A DNA stretch of 64,000 bases from Pelosinus fermentans JBW45 (GTDB lineage: Bacteria; Bacillota; Negativicutes; DSM-13327). Location: contig NZ_CP010978.1 of NCBI RefSeq assembly GCF_000271665.2, positions 2,882,501 to 2,946,500 of the forward strand, written 5' to 3'. Positions 6,935 through 42,249 of the stretch are shown piece after piece. Positions within the stretch are counted from its first letter, which is position 1. Every line of letters starts with the position of its first letter. The notes beneath the pieces were generated by a model, which worked only from the letters and a program-made list of their open reading frames with translations, ran no database searches and was not told the origin of the DNA. The position numbers and the translations under genes were made by a program.

Positions 6935-8496
6935 CCCAGCATCCCCTCAAGCTCACTCAACTCCTGATCAATTTTATTCTCCATAGTCTTAAGCTTAGCA
7001 AGAATAACTGCCGGTTTCTCATATTCAACTTCTTCAAATACATCCTCTTTGTACTTACTCATCGAGAGGTCATAATTTTCTGCTACAATCTCGCCTTTAG
7101 GCACAAAGAAAAACTTCTCTTTGCGATCAATTTCTTTCCTCTGATCCCGCTTTTTAAACTGCGCTACAATATCCTGTAGATCGCCATACCCTTCCTGTTT
7201 TGTCCGCTTATCATCAAGGCTATAGCCGTCGCTTTGCATATCGTAAAACCAGACATTTTCCGTTTCACCGCCCTTGGTAAAGATTAAAATTGCGGTACTG
7301 ACTCCAGCGTATGGTTTAAATACTCCACTAGGCATAGCAATAACGGCCTTAAGTTCACATTTCTCAACAAGTATTTTTCTTGCTTCAACAAAGGCTTTAC
7401 CACTGCCGAATAATACACCCTGAGGCACAATTACACCTGCAGTGCCACCCATTTTAAGTAGATTGTAGATATTTTCCACGAACAAAAGTTCAGTTTTGGT
7501 AGTTCCTAATTTGAGAGATTCGTTAATGTCACCTTTGTCGATACTGCCGGTAAATGGGGGATTGGCCATAATAATTTGATATTGGTTGGACTCGGTAAAA
7601 CCTTTACTCAAGGTATCTTTGTAATCAATGTGGGGAGTGTCCACACCGTGCATCATCAAGTTCATCAGACCAAGCCGCACCATGGTCACATCGATATCGT
7701 AGCCATACAAGCTGTCATTGAGAATATCACTCACTTTTTTAGTCAAGAGACCGCTCACCGAATTGCGAATAAAACCATCTTCGTCGGGCTGAATATTCTT
7801 CTTGTTTTTATCAAGCTGGGTCACCATATACTGATAAGCACCAAGTAAAAAACCGCCCGTTCCGCAGGCGGGATCAGCAATCATGTTGCCCAACTTCGGC
7901 TCTACCAGTTCTGCAATAAGCTTGATGATATGCCTAGGTGTTCTAAATTGTCCATTTTTGCCTGCTGAGGCAATTTCGGAGAGAAGCATTTCATAGACAT
8001 CCCCTTGAATGTCCTGAAATGCCTGTCCGCCTTCGTTGGCATCTTTTTCAATCTCCGCAAATATCTCTTCGATGGTAGATATGGCTTCTACCAGCAAGGC
8101 AGGCTTAGGGATAATAAAAACCGCATTCTGCATGTGATGAGTAAAGGGCGATTCATCTCCATTAAGCATTTTCAGGAAGGGGAATACTTTCATCTGCACA
8201 TGAGAAAGCATCTCTTCGGCTGGCATTTGTTTAAAATCACTCCAGCGAAGAGTCTGTTTATCCACTTTTTGTTCGGTGCCGGGCAGGATAAACTGTCCAT
8301 CAAACTTAGAGGTATACTTTTCACCTGTAAATTCAGCATCCGATATCCGTTTCAGATCAAGATCATCCAGTTGCTTCATAAATAGGAGATAAGTAATTTG
8401 TTCAATAGCGGTGATAGGATTGGAAATACCACCGCTCCAAAATTTATCCCATAGTTGATTAATTTTACTTTTAAGTGCTGCGTTATTTTGTAACAA
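6931..8496 (-). CDS. hsdM: Type I restriction-modification DNA methyltransferase subunit HsdM
   Basis: 521 residues. The N-terminal HsdM helical domain (INQLWDKFWSGGISNPITAIEQITYLLFMKQLDDL) precedes an N6-adenine methyltransferase domain. That domain has the SAM motif ADPACGTGGFLLGAY near residue 207 and catalytic NPPF near 310. It methylates adenine within the HsdS target to protect host DNA and is required for restriction. The start appears to be TTG at 8496, nine bases after AAGGTGG and one base after the hsdR stop, so translation is probably coupled. It overlaps hsdS by four bases. All key residues are present. Confidence 0.94.
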   Translation of the reverse strand: MLQNNAALKSKINQLWDKFWSGGISNPITAIEQITYLLFMKQLDDLDLKRISDAEFTGEKYTSKFDGQFILPGTEQKVDKQTLRWSDFKQMPAEEMLSHVQMKVFPFLKMLNGDESPFTHHMQNAVFIIPKPALLVEAISTIEEIFAEIEKDANEGGQAFQDIQGDVYEMLLSEIASAGKNGQFRTPRHIIKLIAELVEPKLGNMIADPACGTGGFLLGAYQYMVTQLDKNKKNIQPDEDGFIRNSVSGLLTKKVSDILNDSLYGYDIDVTMVRLGLMNLMMHGVDTPHIDYKDTLSKGFTESNQYQIIMANPPFTGSIDKGDINESLKLGTTKTELLFVENIYNLLKMGGTAGVIVPQGVLFGSGKAFVEARKILVEKCELKAVIAMPSGVFKPYAGVSTAILIFTKGGETENVWFYDMQSDGYSLDDKRTKQEGYGDLQDIVAQFKKRDQRKEIDRKEKFFFVPKGEIVAENYDLSMSKYKEDVFEEVEYEKPAVILAKLKTMENKIDQELSELEGMLG

Positions 8497-8497
8497 G

Positions 8498-11296
8498 TTA
8501 TGCTGCCACCTTTTTTGTTAGTTCTAAGATTTCGTTAATTTCTGCAGGGGTAAACAAGCCACGGATTCCCTGTGGGTGCAATACTGTAAAAGGTGATTCT
8601 ATCAAATCACGCTTTTGCACAGTCTCTTTTTCCATTATAAATTCTTTCAATAGATTCAAAAAATCCAATTGCCGGGAACTTAGATTGGTATGGCTAAGAA
8701 TAAATTGTTCAAATGCTCTAGTGACTGTTTCCGGGAAGCTTTCCAATACTTCTAGGCCCAAGATATGTCTAATGAACTGAATGAACTTTGCTTTTCGATT
8801 TTTATACACATTTTTAAGTAAATCCTCCGTAATATGAGGATGCTCGTCGTGTAACATGGCGGCGAGTTCCTGTGCCTCATCTTCGGTAATCTCTTTACCC
8901 TCTTTGATCCTCTGCAAAATCGGGTTTCGTTCTGTAAGTTCCATAATGAGCTTTTCTACCATTTCACGATACTTAGAAACACTCACCGCTGAATGTTCCG
9001 GCCCAAACTCTACCATTTCTTTTGTTTTCAGTAAATCGGTAAAGTCAAACTTAGCAGGTCCTAAAGATTGAATATCACCATCACGATATTTCATTAATGT
9101 AGATAACTTTTCGGCAAGTTCATCAAACGTTTCATCCGTTGCCCTTGCCCAATAGTGATTGGTTTGAGCAAGCTTAATAATCGACTCTTCTCTTGCAACA
9201 ATATTGACTGAAAGAGGAAGTTCACCAATCAGCTCGACAAGATTATCCTTTAAGGTTTCAAATTTTTCTTTTTCATCTGCCAACTTCGCCAAGGATGCTT
9301 CAAGCAAATCTTTCTGAAATCGCATAGCCTTAAAATCGGTTTGGGAAACCGTTCTAAAAAGCGGCTTTATGGTGGCACGTAAAAACTCAATCTTATCATG
9401 AGTCAATTTTGTCCAGAAATTATCATCTTCAAGTTTTTGCAATTCTGTGGCTGACTCTTGAATCACCACCGAGTTTTGCGGGAGTTCCTGAATCTGCTTT
9501 CTAAGCTTACTAATCTCTTTTTCGGCAATGGCATGGTTTTGCGTGTCAATTGCCTTTTCTATTTTATCAAGCCGTATGCCGATAAAGCGTACTGGGAGCG
9601 GAATTTGAACTGTTGCTTCCTTGCCTTTAGGATTGAGCTTAAAATATGCAAAGTTATCCCAGCAATCCAAAATAAGGAACCTATCTTTAACCGTGCACCA
9701 TGGTTTCATTTTGTGTGGTTCTAAAAGCCTCGTACCACGGCCAATCATTTGCCAGAACTTAGTATAAGAATAGACAGGCTTCGCGAAAACAAGATTCACT
9801 AGTTCTCTAATATCAATACCTGTATCCAACATATCAACACTAAGGGCAATACGCGGCATATCGTTGTTTTTAAACTGATCTAGAAGTCCGCCCTTGCCAT
9901 AGACCCTTGAATCCTCTGAGATAAGTACCTTAGCCAGTTCACCGTTGTATTCAGGGTACAAAGAATCAAATATTTGTTCAATCCGCCGGGCATGAGACTT
10001 AGAAGAACAAAAGAATATCGTCTTCCCAGGTAATACACCATTTGTATCTTTAATTGACTCTTCCATGAACTCTTTGACAATAAGCGCATTTGTTCCCTTA
10101 TTGATAACAGTTTTCTCCAGCTCGGAACCTTCAAAATTTATCTCTTCTATCTCTTTGCCTTCAAGAATTAATCGTTTTTGGTCTTCCAGAGAGATTGTTC
10201 GCTTGCTAATACCCTCATCCTGAAACTTGGTATGTATTTTCATCACCTGAAAGCTGCACAAGTAAGGCGGTATATTATTCACTGCTTCTTCATATGTGTA
10301 AGCAAACGTTGGAAGACCATTATCGCAATTAAAAAGCTTGAAAGTATTGTGATCTATGATATCTGTCGGCGTTGCGGTTAGCCCGAGGCTAATCGCTTTG
10401 AAATAGTCAAGTACTTCTCCATAGGTATTATATATGGAACGATGGCTTTCATCAATTACAATTAGATCAAAGAAGTGAGGTGAAAGAGTGTTTTCCTCTT
10501 CCCTGATAATATTGAGCATCGTGGGGTAGGTTGAAATATAGATACGACGATCTTTTGCAATGAGTTTTTCGCCGTCTTTCGGCCACCGGGGTTCATTGGG
10601 TAAGTGTTCTTTGAAAGCTTCTAGCCCCTGCTGCCGTAAAGCAATCCTGTCCACCAGAAATAACACTCTTTGTGCATGACCTGCACGCATGAGTGCATCC
10701 ACAAGGGCAATACATGTTCTTGTTTTACCAGTCCCTGTGGCCATCACTAGAAGAAAGTTTCGTTGTTTCTTTTCAATTCCCTCCATTACAGAACGGATCG
10801 CTCGAATCTGATAATCTCTTCCAGCAATTTCTGTATTGATTAGCTCATCAGCAAGCCGTTTCCTATGTTCGCGAATATATTGAAACCGTTCTAAATCATC
10901 TCTTGTTGGATAACCTAATATCTTTCGAGGAGGGTAATTCTCTAAGTCCCAGAAGTAAATTTCAAGACCGTTCGTATAAAAGCAGAAAGGAAGTTTGCCA
11001 CCACGTTGTTTTTGAATGTTATAACAATACTGTTTTGCCTGTTCCCGACCAATTGCAGGATCTTTGGAAGTCTTTTTCGCCTCGACAACTGCAAGGGGCT
11101 TTGCATCCCTACCCAATAGAACATAATCACTATATTGATGACCTTCATAAGGAGTTCGCGCCTCTGCCACGCCCTCTGGTAGGGGTACAGAAATATCAAA
11201 CTCTTTAGAAACCTGAGTAAGATTATTGACATCCCAACCCGCTATATGTAATTTTACATCGATTAGTTCTTTTCGTGTTTCTGCTTCCGTTTTCAT
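8498..11296 (-). CDS. hsdR: Type I restriction enzyme endonuclease/translocase subunit HsdR
   Basis: About 932 residues. The N-terminal nuclease domain has LAVVEAKKTSKDP (the ExK of a PD-(D/E)xK site). An SF2 motor follows, with Walker A MATGTGKTRT near 183, DESH box (IVIDESHRS) near 275, SLGLTATPTD, and motif VI QMIGRGTRL. A C-terminal domain contacts the methylase. I prefer ATG at 11296 (AGGAG five bases upstream) over the frame opening at 11323. It is the first gene of a compact R-M-S operon. HsdR translocates DNA and cuts unmethylated invading DNA. Confidence 0.93.
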   Translation of the reverse strand: MKTEAETRKELIDVKLHIAGWDVNNLTQVSKEFDISVPLPEGVAEARTPYEGHQYSDYVLLGRDAKPLAVVEAKKTSKDPAIGREQAKQYCYNIQKQRGGKLPFCFYTNGLEIYFWDLENYPPRKILGYPTRDDLERFQYIREHRKRLADELINTEIAGRDYQIRAIRSVMEGIEKKQRNFLLVMATGTGKTRTCIALVDALMRAGHAQRVLFLVDRIALRQQGLEAFKEHLPNEPRWPKDGEKLIAKDRRIYISTYPTMLNIIREEENTLSPHFFDLIVIDESHRSIYNTYGEVLDYFKAISLGLTATPTDIIDHNTFKLFNCDNGLPTFAYTYEEAVNNIPPYLCSFQVMKIHTKFQDEGISKRTISLEDQKRLILEGKEIEEINFEGSELEKTVINKGTNALIVKEFMEESIKDTNGVLPGKTIFFCSSKSHARRIEQIFDSLYPEYNGELAKVLISEDSRVYGKGGLLDQFKNNDMPRIALSVDMLDTGIDIRELVNLVFAKPVYSYTKFWQMIGRGTRLLEPHKMKPWCTVKDRFLILDCWDNFAYFKLNPKGKEATVQIPLPVRFIGIRLDKIEKAIDTQNHAIAEKEISKLRKQIQELPQNSVVIQESATELQKLEDDNFWTKLTHDKIEFLRATIKPLFRTVSQTDFKAMRFQKDLLEASLAKLADEKEKFETLKDNLVELIGELPLSVNIVAREESIIKLAQTNHYWARATDETFDELAEKLSTLMKYRDGDIQSLGPAKFDFTDLLKTKEMVEFGPEHSAVSVSKYREMVEKLIMELTERNPILQRIKEGKEITEDEAQELAAMLHDEHPHITEDLLKNVYKNRKAKFIQFIRHILGLEVLESFPETVTRAFEQFILSHTNLSSRQLDFLNLLKEFIMEKETVQKRDLIESPFTVLHPQGIRGLFTPAEINEILELTKKVAA

Positions 11297-11455
11297 CGTT
11301 TCTCCTATCTTAGAGTAACACACAAGGACAAGTATATGTGTTATCCCAACTCATTTATGATAGTACATTATTTATGATACGATAAACCCAAGGGTTAGGC
11401 ATCCTATATAACAGTGACACTTTCCTTTACGGGACAATTATCCAGAATATTTTAT

Positions 11456-11535
11456 AATTCACCTTCGTCCATTGAATTTCCTTGTTTTCTTACAAAAAAA
11501 TACAACGCCTTTCTCTAAGCGTTGTATTTTTGTAT
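11456..11535 (-). repeat. Terminator-plus-start interspersed repeat, copy 1
   Basis: On the minus strand an AAAAATACAACGC/GCGTTGTATTTTT hairpin (11496-11531) follows the helicase stop by about 25 nt. It is succeeded by AAGGAAATTCAATGGAC, a ribosome site plus ATG that opens only a few codons. The same arrangement recurs near 15970, 23895, 25671 and 30887. Here the hairpin should terminate the helicase gene. Confidence 0.7.
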
Positions 11536-11556
11536 CTTTTAAAGCATATATGTCCT

Positions 11557-14430
11557 TCAGCTGCCCCATATTTCAAAATGAGCAGCACTTCCAGAACTTC
11601 TAATATAATGATTTGATGCTCCTAAAACTTCTTGAATTTTCTCCGGCATCGGGATTGTCTTACTAATAGAAGGTTGAACAATAATAATTCTACCCACCAA
11701 AGGTTTATTCTGTTTTAGTGAATCCAAAAAGCCTTTATGATCTCCACTAAGAAACTTGCACTTGTTAGACTTTCTTCGCTGAGCAATTTTATTAATTAGA
11801 GTTCCTTTATTCTTCAACCATATCAAGCATTTAACAGCTTGTCCAGCTACCTCATAGACATCTGACACGCTTGAATTATATTGAGTGGCAGACATTCCTT
11901 TTACATGAAACAAAGATACTTCAAATGAATTTAGCATTTCCTCAACAGTAATAAAATCGGCAATCTCTCCACTGGAATGATCATAGATAATATAGCTATA
12001 AGATGAGTTTGATATTAAAATTGTCTCCAGAGCTGAATGAATAGAGTCTTTCCCATTGCATTCATTGTTCACATTGGTTCCATATTGCTTCCAATTAATT
12101 TCTTTTATATTTGATTGATCAAAAATTATTGAATTTGGATCTCCTTTATGAACTTCATTTCGAATAATTAATATATCATTTGAAGTTCTAAAGCTCAAAG
12201 GATTTTGATTTAGATATTCAGCTATTGATACCTCTTTCCTTCCATCTTTTAAAAATATTGTATCGAGCTTAGACGAGTAAATACCACTTGTATTACAAAT
12301 TAGCTCTTGTGTATTACCATTGATGTAAATAGTTAATGAAATAAAGGCATGGTTGATTTTATTGATTCTCAAATCTGCATCGAGTAAAGTACTCTTATAT
12401 CCACCTTCTTGCTCAATACAAAAAACTGGCGGTGTAATATATGTATCTCCACCAAAGTCCCACATAAAGATATTATCGGGATATTGTTTTAACTCTTCTG
12501 GCACTGGAAGCAAATCATAATTTGTTTCCGTTTTCACAGTAATGTTTGGGTTTGCAATCTTTGTTCCATTAAAATCACACCATTTTACAAATTCAGGAAT
12601 AGTCAAGTAAGCACTACTCCATATTTTAGACCCACTACTATAACCTATTGTAATGTTATTCTCTAAGCCTTGTGCTTTACAAAACACATGTCCCGGAGAA
12701 AACATTTTTCCAGTTGTAGGATTAATCGATTTACTAACATCTGACCCTGCCATAATACGATATGTTTCACCAGCTTTAGCATACCTATTGAGCATACCAG
12801 AATTGAAAATCTCAAATGACCTTAGCTCTCCAAGTACATGGTGAATCTCAGATCTTGAAACTTTATAAAAATTATTTTCTCCACAATATGCTTTTGCTAT
12901 TTCTTCATAAATTGTTTCGCTTTTAAGCTGAGAATAGATAAAGAGCAAGTTTGTACTTTGCTGAAAATGTACAATAAATAGCTTATGACTTATGTCGTTC
13001 AAAGTATCTCCATTGCTCCACTTTGGAGATACATACTCTTGTCCAATTACTATAATAGTATTTTCTCTTTTGTTTACCAACACACCTGTTGTAATCTTAC
13101 AAAGATCAGGGAATTTTGAATCTAGAATAAAATTTGAAACTTTAAATATTTTAGCGTGGCAGTTTGGGCAAATATTGTATAACGAAATATCATCCTCAAA
13201 ATTGGTACTCTTATTATCGCGTTGTTCAAAATCATGAAAATACTGCTTCAGTTCTTCTTCGGAATTAGTTTTATTTTCACTCATATCAATTATCATATCT
13301 TGCCATATAGCATCAGCAGAATATAATCTGTTATTTTCAATAATAAGCTCGCTATCATTCATCGCTATAAACTTTGCTGTACCAATGTTCTCAGAATTGG
13401 TTCGTGCAAACCTGCCAATAAATTGTAACGTATTAGCCAATGATTTATGTGCGGAATGTATTGCCGCAATTTTTAGGTTTGGAAAATCAAATCCTTCTCC
13501 TAACATATCAACACATATAATTCCATCCACTTCTCCAGCTTTTAATTGTTCTACAACTTCTTTAACATGTTTATTGCTTTTAGAGCTATCGATATTTTTT
13601 AATCTTAATTGTGTATTTCTTGCATACAACTCTGACAGTTCTGCTGCATGCTTCTTTGAATTAGTTCTAATCATTAGATAATGAGACAATCCTTGTGCTT
13701 TGTCAGATAAAAATACTTTTTCGGCTTTTGTAGCGATTAAAATATCCTTATCATCATTTTCTTCTAAAGGAACATATTCAATTTCTCCAAATATCCCATC
13801 ACGATATGCCATAGATAAAGGATAAGAATAAATTATTTCTCCGCGTATTTCTTTTTTATCCAGTCTAAATGGAGTTGCAGTAAACAAAATCTGCTTTGCC
13901 AAATTCATATTTACAAGAATTTCTTCCCATGTTTTTGCTGGAGAATGGTGTGCTTCATCAACTAAAACTAAGTCAAATAACTTTTGAGCTTTTTGATCTT
14001 GAGATAGTACTAATGCACATTGTGGAGTAGAAATAACCACATTGGCTTCTAATATACTATTATAATACTGCTCATCATATTTGTTTTTTAGTTCAAACAC
14101 TTTGGGCTTTATAGTACTATTTTGAAATACGGTAGCTTTGCATAGTGTTCTCAATTCACCAAAATCCTCTACAATTTGACTTCTTACCAGAACGCTAGGG
14201 GTTACAACCAATACTTTTTTAGACTCCAATACATATGGTGACATCATTAAAACTGACGTTTTTCCAGAACCAGTAGGCATAACAACAATCGCTGCTTTAT
14301 TTTTTCTTAAAGTAAAGAACGAATTAATAGAATGTATAGCACCTATTTGAGCATTACGCAAACCGTTCCCATTACTTTTTTGTTTAGGATATCTAATGGC
14401 TGAGTAGTGTTTTGAAAAATAGTTATTCAT
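11557..14430 (-). CDS. Large DEAD/DEAH-box SF2 helicase with uncharacterised C-terminal half
   Basis: 957 residues from the ATG at 14430 (GGAG seven bases upstream). Walker A is MPTGSGKTS (51-58), DEAH is LVLVDEAHH (158-161), motif III is FTATPF (~183), and motif VI is LQFIGRFART (336-343), so the UvrB/RecG-like SF2 motor is complete. A CPNC (421-424) begins a possible zinc knuckle. Roughly residues 430-957 match nothing I recognise. It lies between a type I restriction operon and a GIY-YIG/DUF4357 gene, the usual setting of defence-linked helicases. It is transcribed alone, with the repeat hairpin after its stop. A role in nucleic-acid defence is inference from context. Confidence 0.75.
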   Translation of the reverse strand: MNNYFSKHYSAIRYPKQKSNGNGLRNAQIGAIHSINSFFTLRKNKAAIVVMPTGSGKTSVLMMSPYVLESKKVLVVTPSVLVRSQIVEDFGELRTLCKATVFQNSTIKPKVFELKNKYDEQYYNSILEANVVISTPQCALVLSQDQKAQKLFDLVLVDEAHHSPAKTWEEILVNMNLAKQILFTATPFRLDKKEIRGEIIYSYPLSMAYRDGIFGEIEYVPLEENDDKDILIATKAEKVFLSDKAQGLSHYLMIRTNSKKHAAELSELYARNTQLRLKNIDSSKSNKHVKEVVEQLKAGEVDGIICVDMLGEGFDFPNLKIAAIHSAHKSLANTLQFIGRFARTNSENIGTAKFIAMNDSELIIENNRLYSADAIWQDMIIDMSENKTNSEEELKQYFHDFEQRDNKSTNFEDDISLYNICPNCHAKIFKVSNFILDSKFPDLCKITTGVLVNKRENTIIVIGQEYVSPKWSNGDTLNDISHKLFIVHFQQSTNLLFIYSQLKSETIYEEIAKAYCGENNFYKVSRSEIHHVLGELRSFEIFNSGMLNRYAKAGETYRIMAGSDVSKSINPTTGKMFSPGHVFCKAQGLENNITIGYSSGSKIWSSAYLTIPEFVKWCDFNGTKIANPNITVKTETNYDLLPVPEELKQYPDNIFMWDFGGDTYITPPVFCIEQEGGYKSTLLDADLRINKINHAFISLTIYINGNTQELICNTSGIYSSKLDTIFLKDGRKEVSIAEYLNQNPLSFRTSNDILIIRNEVHKGDPNSIIFDQSNIKEINWKQYGTNVNNECNGKDSIHSALETILISNSSYSYIIYDHSSGEIADFITVEEMLNSFEVSLFHVKGMSATQYNSSVSDVYEVAGQAVKCLIWLKNKGTLINKIAQRRKSNKCKFLSGDHKGFLDSLKQNKPLVGRIIIVQPSISKTIPMPEKIQEVLGASNHYIRSSGSAAHFEIWGS

Positions 14431-14579
14431 ATAGCAACTCCACCTTTTCAATCTTCTATAACAGAATTAAGTATGCAGCCATGGTGGTCTTTTGTCTTAC
14501 AAATTTGCTATTACATAAATAAACCTCTCCCTAAAGACAATCATGAGCAATTTGATTATATTTCTTTCTGAATTTTCTA

Positions 14580-14618
14580 TATTTTTAAGTGATTCTTGAC
14601 TTGAATCATTTAAAAATA
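14580..14618. other. Inverted repeat upstream of the helicase gene
   Basis: TATTTTTAAGTGATTC (14580-14595) pairs with GAATCATTTAAAAATA (14603-14618) with one wobble. A related sequence (CTTAACTAGAATTATTTAAAA) lies at about 15885-15905. Function unknown; the rest of 14452-14650 shows nothing clear. Confidence 0.35.
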
Positions 14619-14650
14619 TCTCCCTAATATTGTCCGCTGCTTGTTACTTT

Positions 14651-14684
14651 TTGAGACGCTAAGGGACGTTCCTTTTCTGTCAAC
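14651..14684 (-). repeat. REP-like repeat unit flanking the RAYT tail (left)
   Basis: A 34-bp unit beginning TTGAGAC and ending GTCAAC, with core AGGGACG. It matches 14888-14921 at 26 of 34 positions in the same orientation. The stop codon of the adjacent transposase tail lies inside it. Confidence 0.6.
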
Positions 14685-14886
14685 TTCTTGCTACCACACC
14701 ACGAGATATTCCGGTGGCTCGCTCAATTTGGCGAATGGAGAGTCCTTCTTTGTCTTTCAATTGCCTAAGTAAAGCATCACGCTCTGCTTTGGGCCAAGCT
14801 GCTATTTCATGAGGTTCGCTTCCTTCTGTACATCGCAATATTTTGCGGCGAATTTCTTCTTTAGATGGATTGATCTTTCCTGACAC
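14680..14886 (-). pseudogene. C-terminal fragment of a REP-associated tyrosine transposase (RAYT)
   Basis: 68 codons. The tail KAERDALLRQLKDKEGLSIRQIERATGISRGVVARS is the HTH C-terminus commonly seen on clostridial Y1/RAYT transposases. The catalytic HUH/Tyr domain is absent, so the piece cannot transpose. It is flanked by two direct 34-bp REP-like units, the usual neighbours of RAYT genes, and its stop codon lies within one. I treat it as a fossil rather than a 68-residue regulator, although the HTH alone could still bind DNA. Confidence 0.65.
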
Positions 14887-14887
14887 A

Positions 14888-14921
14888 TTGAGACATACAG
14901 GGACGCTCTCTTTTTGTCAAC
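14888..14921 (-). repeat. REP-like repeat unit flanking the RAYT tail (right)
   Basis: A 34-bp direct copy of the 14651-14684 unit (TTGAGAC...AGGGACG...GTCAAC). It sits between the transposase remnant and the GIY-YIG gene end. Confidence 0.6.
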
Positions 14922-14952
14922 ATTTTGCCACTATATGCTAACAAAAAGTATA

Positions 14953-15840
14953 CTAATCACGCTCTTCCCCATTATCCGCCATTTCTTTATCAATCTCTTT
15001 CAACATCTTTCCTTCACGCTTCCACAATTTCCTACCGTTTGCAGCACCACCAACAATGGCTGCTGCCGCATAACTGGGACTATTGAAAGTAGCATCTTGC
15101 ATAAATATATAAAGACCATTTCCATTATTCAACATTATACCTGTGTCGACTAAATCTTGCCGAAGCTTCACAAGAAAATTAGGGATCGATGGCCTATTAT
15201 CCATCACAGATGTCGATCCTTTTAAGACTACATATTTATTATTAATAATTGCCATTTTAGCAAAGACATTTTTAACCTTCAACTCAAAAATATTTTCTAT
15301 AGAAACCGTATTTTCTTCAACTAATATTCGAGGCTCTAGAATATCAATTCCCAGCGTTAGCAACAATAATTTGATCGCATCTAAAAATTGACTCACTTCG
15401 GCTTCATCGACTTCAGAAATATTTGGTTTTGTCGGAATCTGCGCATTATCAAGTTTGGTTCTATACGCTTCCTTAGCCAGAGCATATAATTCTGCTTCAA
15501 GGTATTTTACTTGTGTCTTGGTTAGATAATCATCTTTAGATGAAAATACAATAGCCTCCGTCCAAAAATCTTTGTTAATCGCGTGACTTTTCAGCCTAGG
15601 CAGCACTGGATCACCCTCGCCTATATATAAAACCTTTTTCTCTGGATCATCTTCATCTGCTCCAAGTAACATATATACACCTGGTTTTTTTGCTGATTCT
15701 CGCATCATAAATTTATCTAATTGCGGTCGAGGGAAAATAGTTCCGTGAATCGTCATATTTGAAACTTCAATTGTTCGAAGTCCATTAGGTTGTCCATCGG
15801 TTAAAAATAGCCGAATTAATTTACCTGACACTATCATCAT
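14953..15840 (-). CDS. GIY-YIG nuclease family protein with DUF4357-like C-terminus
   Basis: 295 residues. The GIY-YIG half has KKPGVYMLLG (GVY at 54-56) and VLYIGEGD (YIG at 72-74), followed by RLKSH. The C-terminal segment FNSPSYAAAAIVGGAANGRKLWK (~232-256) is a DUF4357-type module. Proteins of this build are frequent near restriction-modification genes and may nick or sense DNA; no specific reaction is established to my knowledge. Start is one of two adjacent ATGs (15840 or 15837) just after AAGGA. It sits with the type I system and the large helicase. A later catalytic Arg/Glu of the GIY-YIG fold cannot be verified by eye. Confidence 0.75.
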   Translation of the reverse strand: MMIVSGKLIRLFLTDGQPNGLRTIEVSNMTIHGTIFPRPQLDKFMMRESAKKPGVYMLLGADEDDPEKKVLYIGEGDPVLPRLKSHAINKDFWTEAIVFSSKDDYLTKTQVKYLEAELYALAKEAYRTKLDNAQIPTKPNISEVDEAEVSQFLDAIKLLLLTLGIDILEPRILVEENTVSIENIFELKVKNVFAKMAIINNKYVVLKGSTSVMDNRPSIPNFLVKLRQDLVDTGIMLNNGNGLYIFMQDATFNSPSYAAAAIVGGAANGRKLWKREGKMLKEIDKEMADNGEERD

Positions 15841-24782: not shown

Positions 24783-25181
24783 TCATATACCCATTCTCAT
24801 TTTAATCTGTTCTTTCAATTGGCCAAATTCACATACATATTCTTTGATAATTTTATTACATATTTCAATTGCTAATTGTTCATTGTAGATATGTGCAGTT
24901 GTGTTCCTATCACTTAACATTGCAAGCCACAATTCATCTTTTTCGATAAGTCCTGCGGAGAAAGCTTCACGAAGTACTGTTTTGGGAGAATTAAGACCTG
25001 TAAGTCCTTCCTCCTCAAAAATAGCTTTCAATGCTTTCCAAGCAAGCTCAAAGGTGAATTCAAAACGTTGAATTAATCCATCCCGTAACAAATCATTTGT
25101 CTGGTCAAATTTCATAATTCCATCATTTAGTCTGTTCAATGCATTCTTGTAGTTTTCAAATTTTTGCTTATAATCGCTCAT
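24783..25181 (-). CDS. HepT-type HEPN ribonuclease toxin (nucleotidyltransferase substrate-binding family, HI0074)
   Basis: 132 residues, all helical. The HEPN active motif reads DRNTTAHIY: Arg92-x4-His97 with Tyr99 one residue after the His, the Rx4HxY form. In characterised MntA/HepT pairs that Tyr is adenylylated by the antitoxin to silence RNA cleavage. Start at ATG 25181 is usual for the family (MSDYKQKFENY). An upstream ATG at 25193 has the better AAGGTG spacing and cannot be excluded. It overlaps the antitoxin gene by 14 bases, so the two are coupled. Catalytic residues are intact. Confidence 0.82.
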   Translation of the reverse strand: MSDYKQKFENYKNALNRLNDGIMKFDQTNDLLRDGLIQRFEFTFELAWKALKAIFEEEGLTGLNSPKTVLREAFSAGLIEKDELWLAMLSDRNTTAHIYNEQLAIEICNKIIKEYVCEFGQLKEQIKMRMGI

Positions 25182-25467
25182 ATATAACCACACCTTCTTT
25201 TTTTATATTTTCTAATAATTTTATATCGGTATGATTATCTATAAATATTACATCTATTTTGAAAAGTGTTGCAAGATCGTCAATTTCACTGGAGAAATAT
25301 CCTTTACTTTTAAATTCTGGCAAAGGGTACACTGCAAGATCAATATCGCTAGTTGACTTGTTGTCACCTCTTGCTCGAGAGCCAAAAAGAACAATTCGTT
25401 TGATTGCATACTCTCTGCCGATAGCTTGTATGGAATGAATGAGTGTATCATTCAGTGCACAATCCAT
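25168..25467 (-). CDS. MNT-family minimal nucleotidyltransferase antitoxin (MntA-type)
   Basis: 99 residues. The polymerase-beta-like signature GSRARGDNKSTSDIDLAV gives Gly29-Ser30 and the metal carboxylates Asp41 and Asp43. The third carboxylate is Asp72 in KIDVIFID. In the MNT-HEPN system this enzyme transfers AMP to a tyrosine of the HEPN toxin and so neutralises it. The gene precedes and overlaps the toxin gene, the standard order. Upstream 25468-25670 carries the promoter and a scrap of another gene. Confidence 0.82.
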   Translation of the reverse strand: MDCALNDTLIHSIQAIGREYAIKRIVLFGSRARGDNKSTSDIDLAVYPLPEFKSKGYFSSEIDDLATLFKIDVIFIDNHTDIKLLENIKKEGVVIYERL

Positions 25468-25670: not shown

Positions 25671-25757
25671 CATTCAACTTCGTTCATTGATTTTCCTTGT
25701 TTTATATTGTTTAACCAAAAATACAACGCCTGTTTTTTTAGAGAGCGTTGTATTTCT
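25671..25757 (-). repeat. Terminator-plus-start interspersed repeat, copy 4
   Basis: An AAAATACAACGC...GCGTTGTATTT hairpin (about 25718-25754) closely follows the stop of the protease-nuclease gene. On the minus strand comes TATAAAACAAGGAAAATCA, then ATG AAC GAA GTT GAA, as in copy 3. The continuing 28-codon frame runs into a fragment (25617-25646) nearly identical to part of the C-GCAxxG-C-C gene. Confidence 0.75.
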
Positions 25758-25774
25758 GACAATATTGATCTTAA

Positions 25775-27595
25775 TCAGATTCTAATATCTGAAGGAGTGT
25801 TGATAACATTAACGATTGCGGATTCAGTATCATCAGCAACCTCTGTAATACTCCTAAGAGGATCATGGTTCCGTAAATCACCAAAGTCAAGTCCCGTTAA
25901 AATTTCGATGTTACTGACAGCTACTTGGTACGTTTTGTAACTGCCAAATGCAAATTCCAAGTCTCTAATAAGGTTCTTTTGGGTTTGCAAATAGGCTGTT
26001 GCTGACAGATTGCCATCTTCTTTAACCATTACCACTATTTTCCAAAACTCGGCGGGAATTTTAACACCACGATATAGCATATCGTCCGTACGAAAGACCG
26101 GTCCAGTGAACACGGTCACTTTAAGATCAAAAGTCTCAGCGTTTTTTAAAATATAGTTTTCTAAATCTAGCCATGTGAGTTGATTAAAGTTTTTATGTTG
26201 GGGAGAGCAATTCGTAAAATGGAAAGTATCTTCGTTGGCTTTTTTGGCAAGCTTTCCCCATATTGGATCCAGTCTACGGACAAGATGCCCCCGATCAATA
26301 TCATTGTTGTCATACAATTCAGGACCACATTGGTATTTGCGGTCAATACGAGGATCAAAGTACCATTTCTTTGGACGCTGAATATTAATGAGCTGTTGTC
26401 CATTAATATTTACTGCTGTATAATACGCTAAGCGACGCGATTTACTCATAACAATCGAAAAATGGGTATAATCTAGTACTGTTGTACCATTCTTTAGCAG
26501 GGCAATATCCTGCTTTAGATCAGATCGCAACTCAGGGAGAGGTACTGCATAATGGTTGCCGAGAAAGGCAGTGTTATAACCAGTTGATCTTTCATACCAG
26601 TCAATAGCTAAGTTCCCTATTATCATCTGACTTCTTTCAATGTACGGCAACCCAGAACTAGCAAAGAGACTATCCAGTAGTACTTGCTGCTCTTCATGTA
26701 GTGTGGGTCGCAGCAGGGTAATACACTCCATAATACTACTGATACGAATGCCTTCATTAGCAATGTATTTGGTACTGTCATCGGGGTCAGGAACGCCTGT
26801 ATGATGAAGAGCAATGGTCACCCACTCATCATTAAACACCGGAGAACCCGACGAACCTGGCATAGTGTCTGTTGTATAGTTGATAAAGTCGTCAAATATA
26901 TCGGTGATTCTATTCTCTCTAATCGCAACTACTTTGGGTGCTCCTGAAGGATGCTGGATACTCGAGACATATTCACCTAAGAGTGCTTTTCCTGATTCTA
27001 TGTACAGTGGTAAGAATCCAAATTCGCTTAATTTCGTTCCGTCAGCAGAGTCAGTCTCTAATGCGACTAATGTGAAATCAAGTTTCACATCCGTTATAAA
27101 CAAACGTTCCGGTACAAAACGGAAGCTTTTGATTTGACGCGGCATTAAGTTGAGATCAACCTCGCAGTTAAATTGGGCGAGGCTAGAACGTGCTACGCTT
27201 GCGCTGTCTAAGACGTGCTGATTGGTAAGCAGCAAAGAAGGCGCAACGAGAAATCCTGTACCATGCCCGAGTACCCTACCGATAGAATCACGTATTTCAA
27301 TTCTACACACGGACTTACCAGCTTTCAACCCCGCTTCCAGATACGAAATGGGAAATAGGTCACTTTCACCGATGATCCGCTTCATAGACAAGCCATCTCG
27401 AGGATTGATGAGTGTTTTACGAATCGCAACTCGGTAAGATGTATCTACCTCGAGAGGGCTTTGGGTTGAAAGTTTACTAGCAATATGCTCTCGTTCACTC
27501 CTTCGATCGATGTAGCGTTTCAGTGAATTTTGCTCTTGCCTATCTACAAGGCTCTTATTCAATCTAGGAAAATCTTGATATGATATAACTGACAA
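25775..27595 (-). CDS. Trypsin-like protease fused to a DNA/RNA non-specific endonuclease
   Basis: 606 residues. After ~95 unassigned residues comes a trypsin-like serine protease: His127 (LLLTNQHVLD), Asp173 (VKLDFTLVALE), Ser249 (DTMPGSSGSPVF), the full triad. From ~345 to 580 lies a beta-beta-alpha-metal NUC endonuclease: NDIDRGHLVRR (catalytic His437), FTNCSPQHKNFNQLTWLDLE (metal Asn471). There is no signal peptide, so both act in the cytosol. Such protease-nuclease fusions occur as effectors in defence or self-killing contexts; proteolysis could unleash the nuclease. It stands alone between a toxin-antitoxin pair and a zinc-ribbon gene, and ends at a repeat hairpin. No cognate inhibitor is adjacent. 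Confidence 0.85.
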   Translation of the reverse strand: MSVISYQDFPRLNKSLVDRQEQNSLKRYIDRRSEREHIASKLSTQSPLEVDTSYRVAIRKTLINPRDGLSMKRIIGESDLFPISYLEAGLKAGKSVCRIEIRDSIGRVLGHGTGFLVAPSLLLTNQHVLDSASVARSSLAQFNCEVDLNLMPRQIKSFRFVPERLFITDVKLDFTLVALETDSADGTKLSEFGFLPLYIESGKALLGEYVSSIQHPSGAPKVVAIRENRITDIFDDFINYTTDTMPGSSGSPVFNDEWVTIALHHTGVPDPDDSTKYIANEGIRISSIMECITLLRPTLHEEQQVLLDSLFASSGLPYIERSQMIIGNLAIDWYERSTGYNTAFLGNHYAVPLPELRSDLKQDIALLKNGTTVLDYTHFSIVMSKSRRLAYYTAVNINGQQLINIQRPKKWYFDPRIDRKYQCGPELYDNNDIDRGHLVRRLDPIWGKLAKKANEDTFHFTNCSPQHKNFNQLTWLDLENYILKNAETFDLKVTVFTGPVFRTDDMLYRGVKIPAEFWKIVVMVKEDGNLSATAYLQTQKNLIRDLEFAFGSYKTYQVAVSNIEILTGLDFGDLRNHDPLRSITEVADDTESAIVNVINTPSDIRI

Positions 27596-27733
27596 TGGTT
27601 AGACCTCCTTTCAACTGCCAAAAATAAAGGAACAGGTTTAATAATATATTAGAAAATTAAAGAGATAATGAATTTTTTCTTCGAGGAAATACATATATTT
27701 ATTCCCATATTTTAGCATTTGTCATGGTAAGAT

Positions 27734-36491: not shown

Positions 36492-38681
36492 TTAATGACC
36501 ACCTGTCGGGTGATTTTTGCTCTCAATTTCCTGCAGCTTATACAATTCATAATAACTGCCTTTTTGGGCCAGCAATTCATGATGCGATCCTTGTTCAACG
36601 ATCTTTCCCTGCTCCATTACGATAATGGTATCACAGTCACGTATTGTCGTCAGTCGATGAGCGATCATGATTAATGTTCGTCCTGCTGCCATTTGTCCGA
36701 GATTCGCTTTTATAATATTTTCTGATTCATTGTCTAGTGCACTGGTGGCCTCATCAAAAATAAGAATTCTAGGATCTGTAAGCAATGCCCGGGCAATGGC
36801 GATGCGTTGTTTTTGCCCTCCTGATAAGGTAGCACCTCGTTCACCTACAATCGTGTTATAACCATTGGGCATTTCATTGGCAAATTCATCTACTCCCGCA
36901 ATCTGTGCGACCCTTTGTATTTCTTCCATACTAGCATCCAGTTTAGCTAATGCAATGTTATCTTTAATACTCCCATTGAACAGGTAGGTTTCTTGCAGCA
37001 CTACCCCTACCTGTCGTCTCAGCCAAGCGGGTTCGACTTGAGCCATATCCACACCATCAATTAGTATTCTGCCTGTTTCTGGTACATACAGTCTTTGAAT
37101 GATTTTGGTCAAGGTACTTTTACCTGAACCCGATCTGCCAACAATACCAATGCTAACACCAGCCTCTATTTTCAGGTTGATTTGGCTAAGTATCTCATTT
37201 GTATCTTCCCGATACCGGAATGTGACTCGATCTAATACAATTTCTCCACGAATCGTTGATAGGGTGGTTCGGTTTGGATCAAAAACAGGTTCTGATTTTT
37301 CACTCATAATATCATCAAGTTGATTGATCGATACTCTTGTCTGTTGGAAATTCTGCCAAAGATCAACTAATCGCAGCACCGGAGAAACTACAAAACTGGA
37401 ATACATTTGAAAAGCAATCAATTCTCCAACCGTTAGTCGATTCTCCATGACTTGATTGATGCCAACCCACAGTATACCAATCATGCAAAGTTGCTGAATC
37501 AACGCTGCTGTGTTATGACCGATATTGTTTATATTCGCAGTGACAAAAACCGATTTAATATATCTTGATAACATTTCATCCCACTTTTGGATAAAATATT
37601 TTTCTACTGCCAAGGATTTTACGGTTTGAATGCCTGTAATGGCTTCTATCATAAAGGTTTGGTTTGCAGTCTCAAGCTTAAATTTCTCTTTCAATTTTCT
37701 TCGAAACAAAGGGGTCAATATTAAATTAAGGATGATATAAAGCCCCAAAGCTACTAATGTAATTCCGGTGAGATAACCACTATACGTAAACATGATGGCA
37801 AGATAGATTACTGAAAACGCACTGTCGAGAACCGCAGTGAAAGCAGAGCCGACAATAAACCCCCGTATCGTATCTAACTCTCGAATCCGAGATACAATCT
37901 CACCAACTTTATATTTTTCGAAAAACCGTATTGGCAATGCCATAACATGATGAAAGATTCTCGCACTAAGCGTAACATCAATTTTACTTACGTGATGATT
38001 AAACATACAACTTCTTAAACCATTAATCCATGCTTCAAAGATACAAAGGATTATCATTCCTACAATGAATATATTGAGGGTACTAAGACCGTGATGTACT
38101 AAAACCTTATTAATGATTACTTGGATAAATAAAGGGCTCACAAGTCCGAACATCTGTAACACTAATGAAAGCAGCAGTATTTTACCAAAGGCTTTTTTGT
38201 ACTGCATAATGATCGGGAGAAACCATGCTAATCCAAATTTGGGCTCTTCTTTTTCGATATAGCTAGGCTGCTTCGCAATCAGAATGATTTTGCCACTCCA
38301 TTGTTCTAAGAAAACACTTTCAGCGATACTTACTGGATGGTTCTTGTAAGGGTCAAAGACAATTGTGTTTTCATGATCTCGATTCAGTATAATTATGTAA
38401 CAGCCATTTTTTAAGATTCCGATTGCAGGCAATGGGAATGATGCTTTACCTTTTTTATTACTGTAATCCGTAAAATGAGCTTTTAGCCCCATTTCTTTCG
38501 CTGTTCGGATGAGAGTTGTTAAATCCATCCCCTCATTGCCTATGATGTGAGCACGACGTATTTGTTTTTCATCAGCTGCAATGCCAATCATTTGAGCTAT
38601 CATTAGTAAGCATTTTAATGCTGAATCAACAAAAATGTTTTCTTGCAGCTTCACTTCTTCTTGCATTTTTTGTTTAGCCAT
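36492..38681 (-). CDS. Type I secretion ABC transporter with degenerate C39 (CLD) domain, second copy
   Basis: 729 residues with HlyB-type layout. An N-terminal C39-peptidase-like domain (~15-140) is followed by six membrane helices (~155-440) and an ABC ATPase. The ATPase has Walker A GRSGSGKST near 510, signature LSGGQKQRIAIARAL near 608 and DEATSALD. In the C39 domain the catalytic Cys position of the DCGxxCL motif is Ser (VDSALKCLLMIA), so it cannot cleave leader peptides. It should act as a CLD substrate-docking domain as in HlyB. It starts three bases after the HlyD gene. Paralogue of 40096-42249. It exports a protein in one step with HlyD and an outer-membrane channel encoded elsewhere. 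Confidence 0.88.
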   Translation of the reverse strand: MAKQKMQEEVKLQENIFVDSALKCLLMIAQMIGIAADEKQIRRAHIIGNEGMDLTTLIRTAKEMGLKAHFTDYSNKKGKASFPLPAIGILKNGCYIIILNRDHENTIVFDPYKNHPVSIAESVFLEQWSGKIILIAKQPSYIEKEEPKFGLAWFLPIIMQYKKAFGKILLLSLVLQMFGLVSPLFIQVIINKVLVHHGLSTLNIFIVGMIILCIFEAWINGLRSCMFNHHVSKIDVTLSARIFHHVMALPIRFFEKYKVGEIVSRIRELDTIRGFIVGSAFTAVLDSAFSVIYLAIMFTYSGYLTGITLVALGLYIILNLILTPLFRRKLKEKFKLETANQTFMIEAITGIQTVKSLAVEKYFIQKWDEMLSRYIKSVFVTANINNIGHNTAALIQQLCMIGILWVGINQVMENRLTVGELIAFQMYSSFVVSPVLRLVDLWQNFQQTRVSINQLDDIMSEKSEPVFDPNRTTLSTIRGEIVLDRVTFRYREDTNEILSQINLKIEAGVSIGIVGRSGSGKSTLTKIIQRLYVPETGRILIDGVDMAQVEPAWLRRQVGVVLQETYLFNGSIKDNIALAKLDASMEEIQRVAQIAGVDEFANEMPNGYNTIVGERGATLSGGQKQRIAIARALLTDPRILIFDEATSALDNESENIIKANLGQMAAGRTLIMIAHRLTTIRDCDTIIVMEQGKIVEQGSHHELLAQKGSYYELYKLQEIESKNHPTGGH

Positions 38682-38684
38682 ATC

Positions 38685-40103
38685 TTATCTCTCTCTCAAA
38701 GATTCGCTTTGGTATTTTTTAAAGGGTTCTAAGAAAAATTCATAGATTTGCTTTTGCCGCGTTTTAATTTCAGCATTGACCACCATGCCACTATTGAAAC
38801 GCGTTTCTTGGTTGTTCACAACCACATAGTCTCTATCCATTTGCAAAATTACTCGATATACATTGCCCTTTTCCCGGTCTTCTACTGCATTCGGGCTAAT
38901 CGTAAGGACAACAGCAGGCACCGTGCCATATTTTTGAAAATTAAAGGATTCTATCTTAACCTCGGCAGACTGTCCCTTCTGTATGAATCCAATATCTTTA
39001 TTTGCCACCCAGGCCTCAACTTCTAAGCTGACTTTATCAGGCACTACCTCCAGCAGTACTTGCGCAGGCGTCACAATGCCTCCAATTGTATGCACTGCTA
39101 AATTGCTTATGTATCCGTCATCTGGCGCCACAATGGTTGCTAAACGATTCTTTTCTTCTGCCTTTTTCACTGCTTCATTGCAATAGAAAAGTTTTTGTCT
39201 TGCCTCAACCAGCTTTGTATCAACATCCACATTTTTTTCTGCTACAACCCGCGCTAAAGATGCCTGGCTTTTCGATAATAAGGATTCTTGTGCCATGATT
39301 ATCGATTCTTGTTCTGCCAAATTCTGCTCCACTTCTTCTCGTTTACTTTCCTGGTCTATCAAGGTAAATTTTGATATCGCATTTTCATTTACTAATTGTT
39401 CTAGTTTACTCTCTTTTTCTTTAGCAAGCTGATGCAACTTTGTTAGTTTATTCTTCTCCACTTGAGCACTTCGCAAATTTTGCTGATATTGCTGCATCGT
39501 ATGCCGAGCCTCTTCGATTCTTGTTTGATATGCAAAATTACGACTGTTATAGAGATTGATTTGCGTTTGTATATCTTTTTCATCTGCTTCGGGTATTGCA
39601 TGGGGCAGAAAGGATCGATTTGCTTTTTCGGCGGTCAAGCGCTCTACTTCAAGATTGGCATAAATGGCTTCCCTTTTCACTTTAGCTAAATCATCTGCAG
39701 AATATGTAGTATCTAATTCTAATAACAAATCTCCTTTTTGTACTTTTTGTCCATCTACAACATAAATCTTTTTAATGATCCCCTTATCTTCGGCTTGAAG
39801 TACTCTAACATAGCCATTAGGAATAATTTTTCCTGGCGCTATAGCAACTTCGTTTACACTGCCAAATGTCACCCACAGCAATCCAATAACTGCTAAGATG
39901 AAAAAAGTCCATAATACAGTTCTACTGCCATAGGATGGCGGCGATTCAACGATTTCCAAAGCTGCAGGTAAAAATTCAGCTTCTTTACTTTGAAACTTTT
40001 CGATGTTCTTAATTTTTACTCTTTCATAAAATTCCTTTATCTTTTCTGGAAGAATCTTTAATTCTTCATTCTTCTTTATATATCCATACATTTTATTAAA
40101 CAT
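38685..40103 (-). CDS. HlyD-family membrane fusion (adaptor) protein
   Basis: 472 residues. A cytoplasmic N-terminus, one transmembrane helix (~62-82, VLWTFFILAVIGLLWVTFG), then a lipoyl half (VRVLQAEDKGIIKKIYVVDGQKVQKGDLLLELD). A long coiled coil (~150-320) with many Glu/Lys/Gln residues, the second lipoyl half (TIVAPDDGYISNLAVHTIGG) and a beta-barrel complete the protein. This is the periplasmic adaptor of type I secretion. It overlaps the upstream ABC gene by eight bases and sits between two ABC genes, so the three are one operon. Its presence supports a diderm cell envelope. Confidence 0.9.
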   Translation of the reverse strand: MFNKMYGYIKKNEELKILPEKIKEFYERVKIKNIEKFQSKEAEFLPAALEIVESPPSYGSRTVLWTFFILAVIGLLWVTFGSVNEVAIAPGKIIPNGYVRVLQAEDKGIIKKIYVVDGQKVQKGDLLLELDTTYSADDLAKVKREAIYANLEVERLTAEKANRSFLPHAIPEADEKDIQTQINLYNSRNFAYQTRIEEARHTMQQYQQNLRSAQVEKNKLTKLHQLAKEKESKLEQLVNENAISKFTLIDQESKREEVEQNLAEQESIIMAQESLLSKSQASLARVVAEKNVDVDTKLVEARQKLFYCNEAVKKAEEKNRLATIVAPDDGYISNLAVHTIGGIVTPAQVLLEVVPDKVSLEVEAWVANKDIGFIQKGQSAEVKIESFNFQKYGTVPAVVLTISPNAVEDREKGNVYRVILQMDRDYVVVNNQETRFNSGMVVNAEIKTRQKQIYEFFLEPFKKYQSESLRER

Positions 40104-42249
40104 GGCTGTCTCCTTGCTGTTGATAGAGATTATAATACGCGCCTCTGTTCTTTATAAGTTTGTCATGTGTCCCTTCTTCTATAATTTGACCTCGCTCCAT
40201 GACAATGATTGCGTCACACTCTTTGACATTTGCCAGACGGTGGGCAACGATGATCATCGTACGTCCAGCTGCGATCTGTACAAGATTTCCCATGATGATC
40301 CGCTCTGAATGATAATCTAACGCACTGGTAGCTTCATCAAATATTACAATCTTAGGATTGGAAATTAATGCTCGGGCAATTGCAATTCGCTGGCGCTGAC
40401 CACCAGATAATGCAGCACCCCGTTCTCCGACAATCGTATCATATCCTTCGGGAAGTTCGAGAATAAACTCGTGAGCACCTGCAAGCTTAGCGATCTGAGT
40501 GATCTCTTCCATACTTGCACCTTGACGGGCAAGAGCTATATTGTCCCGTACACTGCCATTGAACAGATAGTTATCTTGCAGCACTACACCAATCTGCTGT
40601 CTTAACCAAGCTGGATCAGCTTGGGCTATATCCACATCATCAATCAAAACCCGACCTGCTTCCGGAATATATAATCGTTGAATGATTTTGGTTAAGGTAC
40701 TTTTCCCGGAACCCGATCGTCCTACGATACCTATCTTCATGCCTGGTTTTATGTGTAGATTGATTTTTCGCAGCACTTCATCATTCTCAATGTAGTACCT
40801 AAAGGTTATATTTTCAAGTTTAATTTCGCCTTTGATCTCTGATAATCGAATTGCATCGGGTAAACAGGTTGGTTCTGGTACTGCATTTAATATATCTCCG
40901 ATTCTTGTAACAGCGAGCTTTGTCTGCTGAAAGGATTGCCACATTCCTACTAAGCGCAATAAAGGTGCACCAGCCTGATTCGCCATCATTTGGAAAGCAA
41001 TAAACTGGCCAATTGTTACTGCTCCATCAATTACCATAAATCCGCCAAACCAGATCAGTAAGTAGGCAACTAGTTTTTGTGTAAGGCTTCCTCCATTATT
41101 TAATACAACGCTGAACTGTGCTTTATCCAAATTGGTACTAACGCTTTTGGCTAATAATCTTTCCCATTTAAAATTGAATTGCGGCTCCACTGCCAGAGAC
41201 TTTACAGTATGAATGCCCGTTATCGCTTCAACAACAAACGCATTGTTTTCTGCACTGGCATTCCAAGAATCTTGCAGTCTTTTTTGATACATTGGCGTTC
41301 CTACTATATTGATTGCCAATTGAATGGGTATGGCTGCAATAGCGATTAAGGTCAAAGGTGCACTATAATAAAACATTACAGCAAAGAATACTACGGAAAA
41401 ACCCAAGTCAATCAGCACCGTCATGGCGGTACCAGTTAAAAATTCGCGAATATTATTTAAAGCAGATACTCTCATCAGAGTATCCCCCACTCGCCTTTTT
41501 TCAAAGAATTGTATAGGTAGATGCATCAAAAGCCGGAACATTCTAGTACCTAAGATTACATCAATTTTATTTGTGGTATGGGTAAATAAATATGTCCTTA
41601 TCAGGTTCATTACGGTCTGGAATAGGACTACAAACACCATCCCCACGACGAGTATATTTAAAGTGACTGTTCCATGATTAACAATTACTTTGTCAATGAT
41701 TACCTGTGTGCATAAAGGCACTACTAGTCCAAATAATTGAAAAAAGAATGCGGCTCCCAAAATTTCTATGAAGTAACGCTTATATCGGACTACAACAGGT
41801 ATAAACCAAATTAAATTAAATTGTCTACTGATGTCCTTTAAATTAAAGGAGCGCTTACATATAATAGCTTGACCCGTCCAACTAAGAAGAAATTCTTCTA
41901 AGGACATTACGATGGAATGTCCATGCCTTGGAGAAAACAGTGCTATTTTCTTTGCATTATGTTCCCCAATCACTATATAATCTCCGTTGTTCATAATCGC
42001 AATTGCAGGAACCGGAATGGCCGATAGTCCTCTTTTCCCTGATTTTACTACTTTTGCTTTCAGATTTATCTTTCTTGCAGCTTTTATTAAGTCCTTTGGT
42101 TCAAAGAGATCATCGCCAATCCCATATTCGTTTGTCAGTTTTTCTTCGTCAATTGGCATTCCAAAGCCTTTTGCTACCACTGCTAAACAAATTTTCCCGG
42201 TGTTCATATACGCTAAGGTTTCTTTTTCCATAATTATTTTTTCTTCCAT
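40096..42249 (-). CDS. Type I secretion ABC transporter with degenerate C39 (CLD) domain, first copy
   Basis: 717 residues, same architecture as 36492-38681. The CLD (~10-135) has NTGKICLAVV, where Thr replaces the C39 catalytic Cys. Then come six transmembrane helices and an ATPase (GRSGSGKSTLTKIIQRLYIPEAGRVL, LSGGQRQRIAIARAL, DEATSALD). The two ABC proteins may form a heterodimer or serve different cargo. It is the first gene of the operon (start ATG 42249 after AAAGGAG). Divergently upstream lies the Imm74-like gene; the operon order is ABC-HlyD-ABC. Confidence 0.88.
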   Translation of the reverse strand: MEEKIIMEKETLAYMNTGKICLAVVAKGFGMPIDEEKLTNEYGIGDDLFEPKDLIKAARKINLKAKVVKSGKRGLSAIPVPAIAIMNNGDYIVIGEHNAKKIALFSPRHGHSIVMSLEEFLLSWTGQAIICKRSFNLKDISRQFNLIWFIPVVVRYKRYFIEILGAAFFFQLFGLVVPLCTQVIIDKVIVNHGTVTLNILVVGMVFVVLFQTVMNLIRTYLFTHTTNKIDVILGTRMFRLLMHLPIQFFEKRRVGDTLMRVSALNNIREFLTGTAMTVLIDLGFSVVFFAVMFYYSAPLTLIAIAAIPIQLAINIVGTPMYQKRLQDSWNASAENNAFVVEAITGIHTVKSLAVEPQFNFKWERLLAKSVSTNLDKAQFSVVLNNGGSLTQKLVAYLLIWFGGFMVIDGAVTIGQFIAFQMMANQAGAPLLRLVGMWQSFQQTKLAVTRIGDILNAVPEPTCLPDAIRLSEIKGEIKLENITFRYYIENDEVLRKINLHIKPGMKIGIVGRSGSGKSTLTKIIQRLYIPEAGRVLIDDVDIAQADPAWLRQQIGVVLQDNYLFNGSVRDNIALARQGASMEEITQIAKLAGAHEFILELPEGYDTIVGERGAALSGGQRQRIAIARALISNPKIVIFDEATSALDYHSERIIMGNLVQIAAGRTMIIVAHRLANVKECDAIIVMERGQIIEEGTHDKLIKNRGAYYNLYQQQGDSHV

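Follow-up and report, generated by a model that had tools for sequence, protein, structure and literature searches.

A predicted cytosolic fusion of a V8-like protease and a NucA/EndoG-type nuclease in Pelosinus fermentans, and its protease-less relatives

Results

The fusion gene and its catalytic domains

The window analysed here is a stretch of 64,000 nucleotides from Pelosinus fermentans JBW45 (contig NZ_CP010978.1, positions 2,882,501 to 2,946,500). It carries a gene that joins a serine protease to a nuclease in one chain, with a strong ribosome-binding site, AAAGGAGG, preceding its TTG start. The features of the gene, in window coordinates and in the order of transcription, are the following.

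27604–27611, minus strand: ribosome-binding site AAAGGAGG, conserved, like the TTG start, in the copies of the window and of the genomes G001, G006 and G005 (copy G005a)
25775–27595, minus strand: fusion gene, V8-like serine protease and NucA/EndoG-type nuclease, 606 amino acids, TTG start (open reading frame, Pfam, alignment)
27383–27595, minus strand: residues 1–71, charged and quickly diverging, without a Pfam match at E < 1 (Pfam and divergence comparison)
27299–27382, minus strand: residues 72–99, conserved [E/K]RIIGxxDLxPIxYLxxG...VCRI just ahead of the protease core, a candidate processing site (alignment)
26807–27262, minus strand: residues 112–263, Trypsin_2 domain with the triad His127/Asp173/Ser249 and pocket residue Thr244 (Pfam, structure match, alignment)
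26498–26719, minus strand: residues 293–366, a linker of variable length followed by a conserved GYxxxFLG...VPLP lead-in (alignment)
25877–26497, minus strand: residues 367–573, Endonuclease_NS domain (Pfam)
26285–26296, minus strand: DRGH catalytic motif, residues 434–437 (alignment)
25704–25765, minus strand: terminator-like hairpin immediately behind the stop codon, −22 kcal/mol, z −7.0 (RNA folding energy)

Both Pfam matches of the protein, Trypsin_2 at 6e-18 and Endonuclease_NS at 1e-54, are far above chance. All 15 full-length fusions in the alignment share His127, Asp173, Ser249, His437, Asn462, Asn471 and Glu479 without exception. No transmembrane segment or signal peptide is predicted in the window protein, and none of 42 homologues has a hydrophobic N-terminus of signal-peptide strength. 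The first-pass annotation, which had placed both domains on one cytosolic chain with the triad, DRGH437 and Asn471, was therefore correct to the residue; as judged from sequence, both catalytic sets are intact and the chain is cytosolic.

The solved structures closest to the nuclease domain are NucA and EndoG, and the active-site set of this type (DRGH437, Asn471, Glu479) is complete. Nucleases of the NucA/EndoG type are sugar-non-specific and degrade both DNA and RNA. The lead-in ahead of the domain is also kept by nuclease-only relatives, and alignments against protease-less relatives, which are almost free of gaps, reveal no insertion or gate specific to the fusion. An AlphaFold model of the full chain, built with four sequences, reached a pLDDT of 28. 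A search for a NuiA-type inhibitor matched nothing anywhere, its controls being likewise silent.

The protease domain and the N-terminal part

The approximately 95 N-terminal residues described earlier as unassigned comprise two parts. Residues 1–70 match no Pfam family at E < 1; compared with relatives outside the genus, their pN is 0.38–0.48, as against 0.14–0.26 for the protease and 0.21–0.29 for the nuclease. Residues 72–99, on the other hand, are conserved alongside the protease across the fusions, and when placed by eye they sit about where a V8-type mature N-terminus is. Position 72, immediately before Arg73-Ile-Ile-Gly, is Glu in most relatives and Lys in the window protein and G001.

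The closest solved structures to the protease domain are V8 and the Spl/glutamyl endopeptidases, in which His213 and Thr/Ser190 are mandatory residues of the specificity pocket (PMC5508998). His264, one residue past the end of the Pfam match, corresponds to His213 and is invariant in the 15 fusions; Thr244 corresponds to residue 190, and 14 of the 15 have Thr or Ser there. These two residues suggest cleavage after Glu or Gln. Speaking otherwise are Asp243, which occupies the place of the Asp that selects Arg/Lys in trypsin, and the substitutions in G001, which alters both 243 and 244. One glutamyl endopeptidase matures itself by cutting after a Glu (PMC5508998), and one might guess from the sequence that the fusion processes itself near residues 72–99. 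In full-length copies the protease domain is itself under purifying selection, which argues that it matters where it is present.

Neighbourhood of the fusion gene

Downstream lies an MNT-HEPN pair of the HI0074/HI0073 type, which the first-pass annotation had associated with the fusion. The neighbouring features, in window coordinates, are the following.

24783–25467: MNT-HEPN pair, GSx10DxD and Rx4HxY motifs intact by eye, 26-base overlap
5660–6934, 6931–8496 and 8498–11323: HsdS, HsdM and HsdR, a complete type I restriction-modification set
11557–14451: large helicase
14953–15840: gene that strongly matches PDC-S14, a PADLOC candidate family

The hairpin that follows the fusion stop codon stands between the two units, and no MNT-HEPN pair was seen beside homologues at the loci read. 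We therefore reject the pair as a partner and assign it to a separate transcription unit. A defence island as the general setting fares no better: at most homologue loci read there is no recurrent sensor or other consistent neighbour, and the adjacent genes are mostly ordinary. EAD1, STAND and subtilase partners are absent from the domains of the window protein and from its adjacent genes, and some relatives adjoin EAD1-trypsin, multiple trypsin and subtilase-trypsin genes. One fusion is located within a type II secretion operon. A Pseudomonas member lies between ilvA and a LysR gene and, judging from these neighbours, is presumably PA1327; in the portion of the PA1327 literature available to us, a mention was found only among mutation lists.

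The small defence cluster at 5660–15840 is about 10–22 kb from the fusion gene, and nothing closely similar was seen in that portion of the G001 region which was read; these defence genes are near the fusion gene and not linked to it. PADLOC matches to trypsins were rejected as evidence of defence, since HtrA from that genome outscores them. About 9–15 kb from the fusion, at 36492–42249, the window also holds two ABC transporters carrying C39 peptidase domains of the sort found in peptide export.

Distribution and mobility

Of 398 Bacillota genomes sampled, two have a full-length fusion, and one of the two is the genome of the window. In the genus it is present in two of eight genomes, three of the eight being less than 90% complete. 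Copies of 68–69% identity occur in another family of the phylum, a 54% identical copy is found on Paenibacillus polymyxa plasmids, and plasmid copies in Rhizobium and Mesorhizobium have about 36–40% identity over 86–91% of the length. This sporadic distribution, with copies in another family and on plasmids, suggests horizontal transfer. The G001 fusion lies between the same flanking genes as the window copy, and between these two genomes the fusion is the most diverged of 14 syntenic genes (dN 0.122, dS 0.80; dN 0.019–0.088 for the others). Scans of viral contigs found no homologue; in phages the matches were weak and to the nuclease only.

Loss of the protease domain within the genus

Three nuclease-only copies occur in two genus relatives, G006 and G005. 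Their coordinates within their own loci are 9553–10608 (L024), 9500–10432 (L023) and 9009–9959 (L022), and they differ in their N-terminal remnants, which comprise about 50 residues in the L024 copy and about a dozen in the other two. The upstream region, the start and the lead-in match those of the fusion and the protease is absent; the copies align to window residues 320–604 with at most two residues missing. Omega (dN/dS) for the G006 copy against G005a, the corresponding copy in G005, is about 0.17, indicative of purifying selection. We conclude from these alignments that an in-frame loss removed the protease domain within the genus of the window and left the nuclease intact.

In DNA trees the window and G001 copies group with the G006/G005a pair, the second G005 copy lying outside, and a single protease-less clade is rejected (AU p 0.008 and 0.017). 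Protein trees have the same branching order and do not reject such a clade (AU p 0.07 and 0.19). The protease has probably been lost at least twice in the genus.

A nuclease that needed the lost protease would be expected to decay, and its maintenance under purifying selection is therefore the chief evidence against obligatory activation by the protease. It is possible to escape this argument if a housekeeping protease makes the cut, or if the role of the shortened protein has changed. The sole Trypsin_2 protein of the complete genome G006 is a membrane-anchored HtrA, and of the ten nuclease-only loci that were examined in Pseudomonadota, nine lack a Trypsin_2-type protease within about 8 kb.

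Exchange of protease and nuclease modules

In Methylobacter the fusion partner of the window-type protease is Endonuclease I; in another genome it is EAD1 (4e-9, a match that passes the curated cut-off). Conversely, NucA has a second trypsin family as its fusion partner in Pseudomonas and others; Methylobacter and related loci add a subtilase to this combination as a third domain, and in one genome the arrangement is split, a subtilase-trypsin gene adjoining a separate NucA gene. A profile search of 397 Pseudomonadota genomes found the protease at E < 1e-40 in nine, fused to NucA in six, to Endonuclease I in one and to another N-terminal part in two (one EAD1 by Pfam, the other only a weak EAD11 match). 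On these sequence comparisons, we regard the protease as a modular, exchangeable partner of the nuclease.

Several individual loci showed further arrangements. At L088 (7115–9013), NucA is preceded by some 340 residues that include LSNWHVL, a motif resembling those of serine proteases but missed by every Pfam trypsin model; this part is possibly a third type of protease in the same position. Nuclease-only proteins of about 420–435 amino acids occur at L063, L064 and L065, and L063, the only one of them scanned, matches a lamin-tail domain at its C-terminus (7e-7, below the curated cut-off). An island at L090 (6528–18741) contains a trypsin-NucA fusion, two further trypsin genes, an unassigned protein of 1097 amino acids and an EAD1-trypsin, and is close to published NucA-trypsin operons.

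Discussion

Possible roles of the fusion

We give about even weight to the reading that the window gene, which stands alone and moves horizontally, encodes a cytosolic effector of the NucA-trypsin kind for conflict or stress, its nuclease being the payload and its protease a modular part. Once free, the nuclease would degrade DNA and RNA, whether those of an invader or those of its own cell; the V8-like protease, together with the conserved segment on its N-terminal side, would either regulate the nuclease or act as a second hydrolase on other proteins. Sequence supports both catalytic sets, the lack of any export signal, domain exchange and the purifying selection on protease-less derivatives; nuclease activity, its trigger and restraint, and any role in phage defence are inferred. 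Of the conflict role proposed in the first-pass annotation, three points stand: the protein is cytosolic, both enzymes are intact as judged from sequence, and the chain is related to a predicted conflict system (below). The MNT-HEPN link and the defence island as a rule do not.

How the nuclease might be controlled is a separate question. The first-pass annotation and Kaur et al. (2020) favour a pro-nuclease, in which a triggered protease would cut the chain in cis or in trans and the freed nuclease would kill the cell or destroy phage DNA. The predicted cascade of Kaur et al. and the protease-gated nucleases demonstrated in another family (Tuck et al., 2025) lend this precedent, and the Glu/Gln-type pocket together with the E72-R73-I-I-G stretch of most relatives could permit self-processing. 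However, the window protein has Lys72, its nuclease aligns with those of protease-less relatives without a fusion-specific insertion, protease-less derivatives are still under purifying selection, and one complete genome has HtrA as its only Trypsin_2 protein. Cleavage as a necessity is thus not supported by the comparison within the genus; cleavage that activates the nuclease is possible and unsupported here, and the pro-nuclease as a whole seems to us rather unlikely. Tentatively, and with less than even confidence, we suggest instead that the nuclease is not a protease-gated pro-enzyme, that it works and is restrained without the protease, and that the protease, an optional part lost repeatedly, acts as a brake or as a second effector.

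A role outside conflict, in which the enzyme would recycle nucleic acids and proteins in the cytosol during stress, starvation or mother-cell lysis, would suit the solitary genes amid ordinary neighbours in many genomes, the Pseudomonas member among them. Such housekeeping is nevertheless improbable for a gene that is rare, patchy in genus and phylum, plasmid-borne, and whose modules are swapped with EAD1 and other nucleases. Endonuclease_NS domains also occur in toxins delivered to other cells, and the fusion inside a type II secretion operon could be taken to indicate delivery that does without a signal peptide; but no recurrent immunity gene, delivery domain or homologue with an export signal was found, and we consider delivery very improbable.

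If the nuclease is indeed not gated by the protease, the genus offers natural full-length and protease-less alleles with which to examine the evolution and control of such fusions. The presence of both versions of one gene in a small genus makes the activation model testable with few constructs.

Comparison with known systems

The window protease shares with V8 and the glutamyl endopeptidases, its closest solved fold, the equivalents of Ser195, Thr190 and His213. Those enzymes, which are activated by removal of a propeptide, are secreted, whereas the window protein is cytosolic, extends far ahead of the protease core and continues into a nuclease. The nuclease shares the DRGH, Asn and Glu set with NucA and mitochondrial EndoG over about 195 aligned residues with few gaps; NucA, unlike the window nuclease, is secreted.

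Protease-gated nucleases have been proven in Hachiman, AVAST, Lamassu and DRT pairs (Tuck et al., 2025; PMC12799240), which like the window gene couple a trypsin-like protease to a nuclease. Their nuclease, however, has a metallo-beta-lactamase fold and is encoded by a separate gene, whereas that of the window is an Endonuclease_NS domain in the same chain; their protease is fused to HamA, Avs1a or LmuA, and the window's is not. The window protein is therefore not a member of the Hachiman/AVAST gated nucleases, although by analogy it may work in a similar way. Disordered insertions block the nuclease active site in those pairs; the window alignments show no insert specific to the fusion. These related but distinct systems establish that protease–nuclease coupling is real in bacterial immunity.

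The closest relative is 'System 3' of Kaur et al. (2020; PMC7159879), NucA-trypsin proteins that were described as a core conflict system over-represented in multicellular bacteria and are predicted to deploy NucA through a proteolytic cascade; EAD1, STAND or subtilase partners occur in a subset only. In both cases a trypsin-like peptidase and an Endonuclease_NS domain with an intact site share one polypeptide, rhizobial (alphaproteobacterial) relatives match the window protein over both domains, and other relatives of the window gene carry EAD1, multiple trypsins or a subtilase. The window gene differs in standing alone, lacking a transmembrane part as well as the optional EAD1, STAND NTPase and subtilase partners, and in having genus relatives without the protease. 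Among the papers found, none contains a defence assay for the NucA-trypsin family. The fusion architecture has been known, as a prediction, since 2020; what the present sequence comparisons appear to add is the in-frame loss of the protease within a genus in which the nuclease has been kept under purifying selection.
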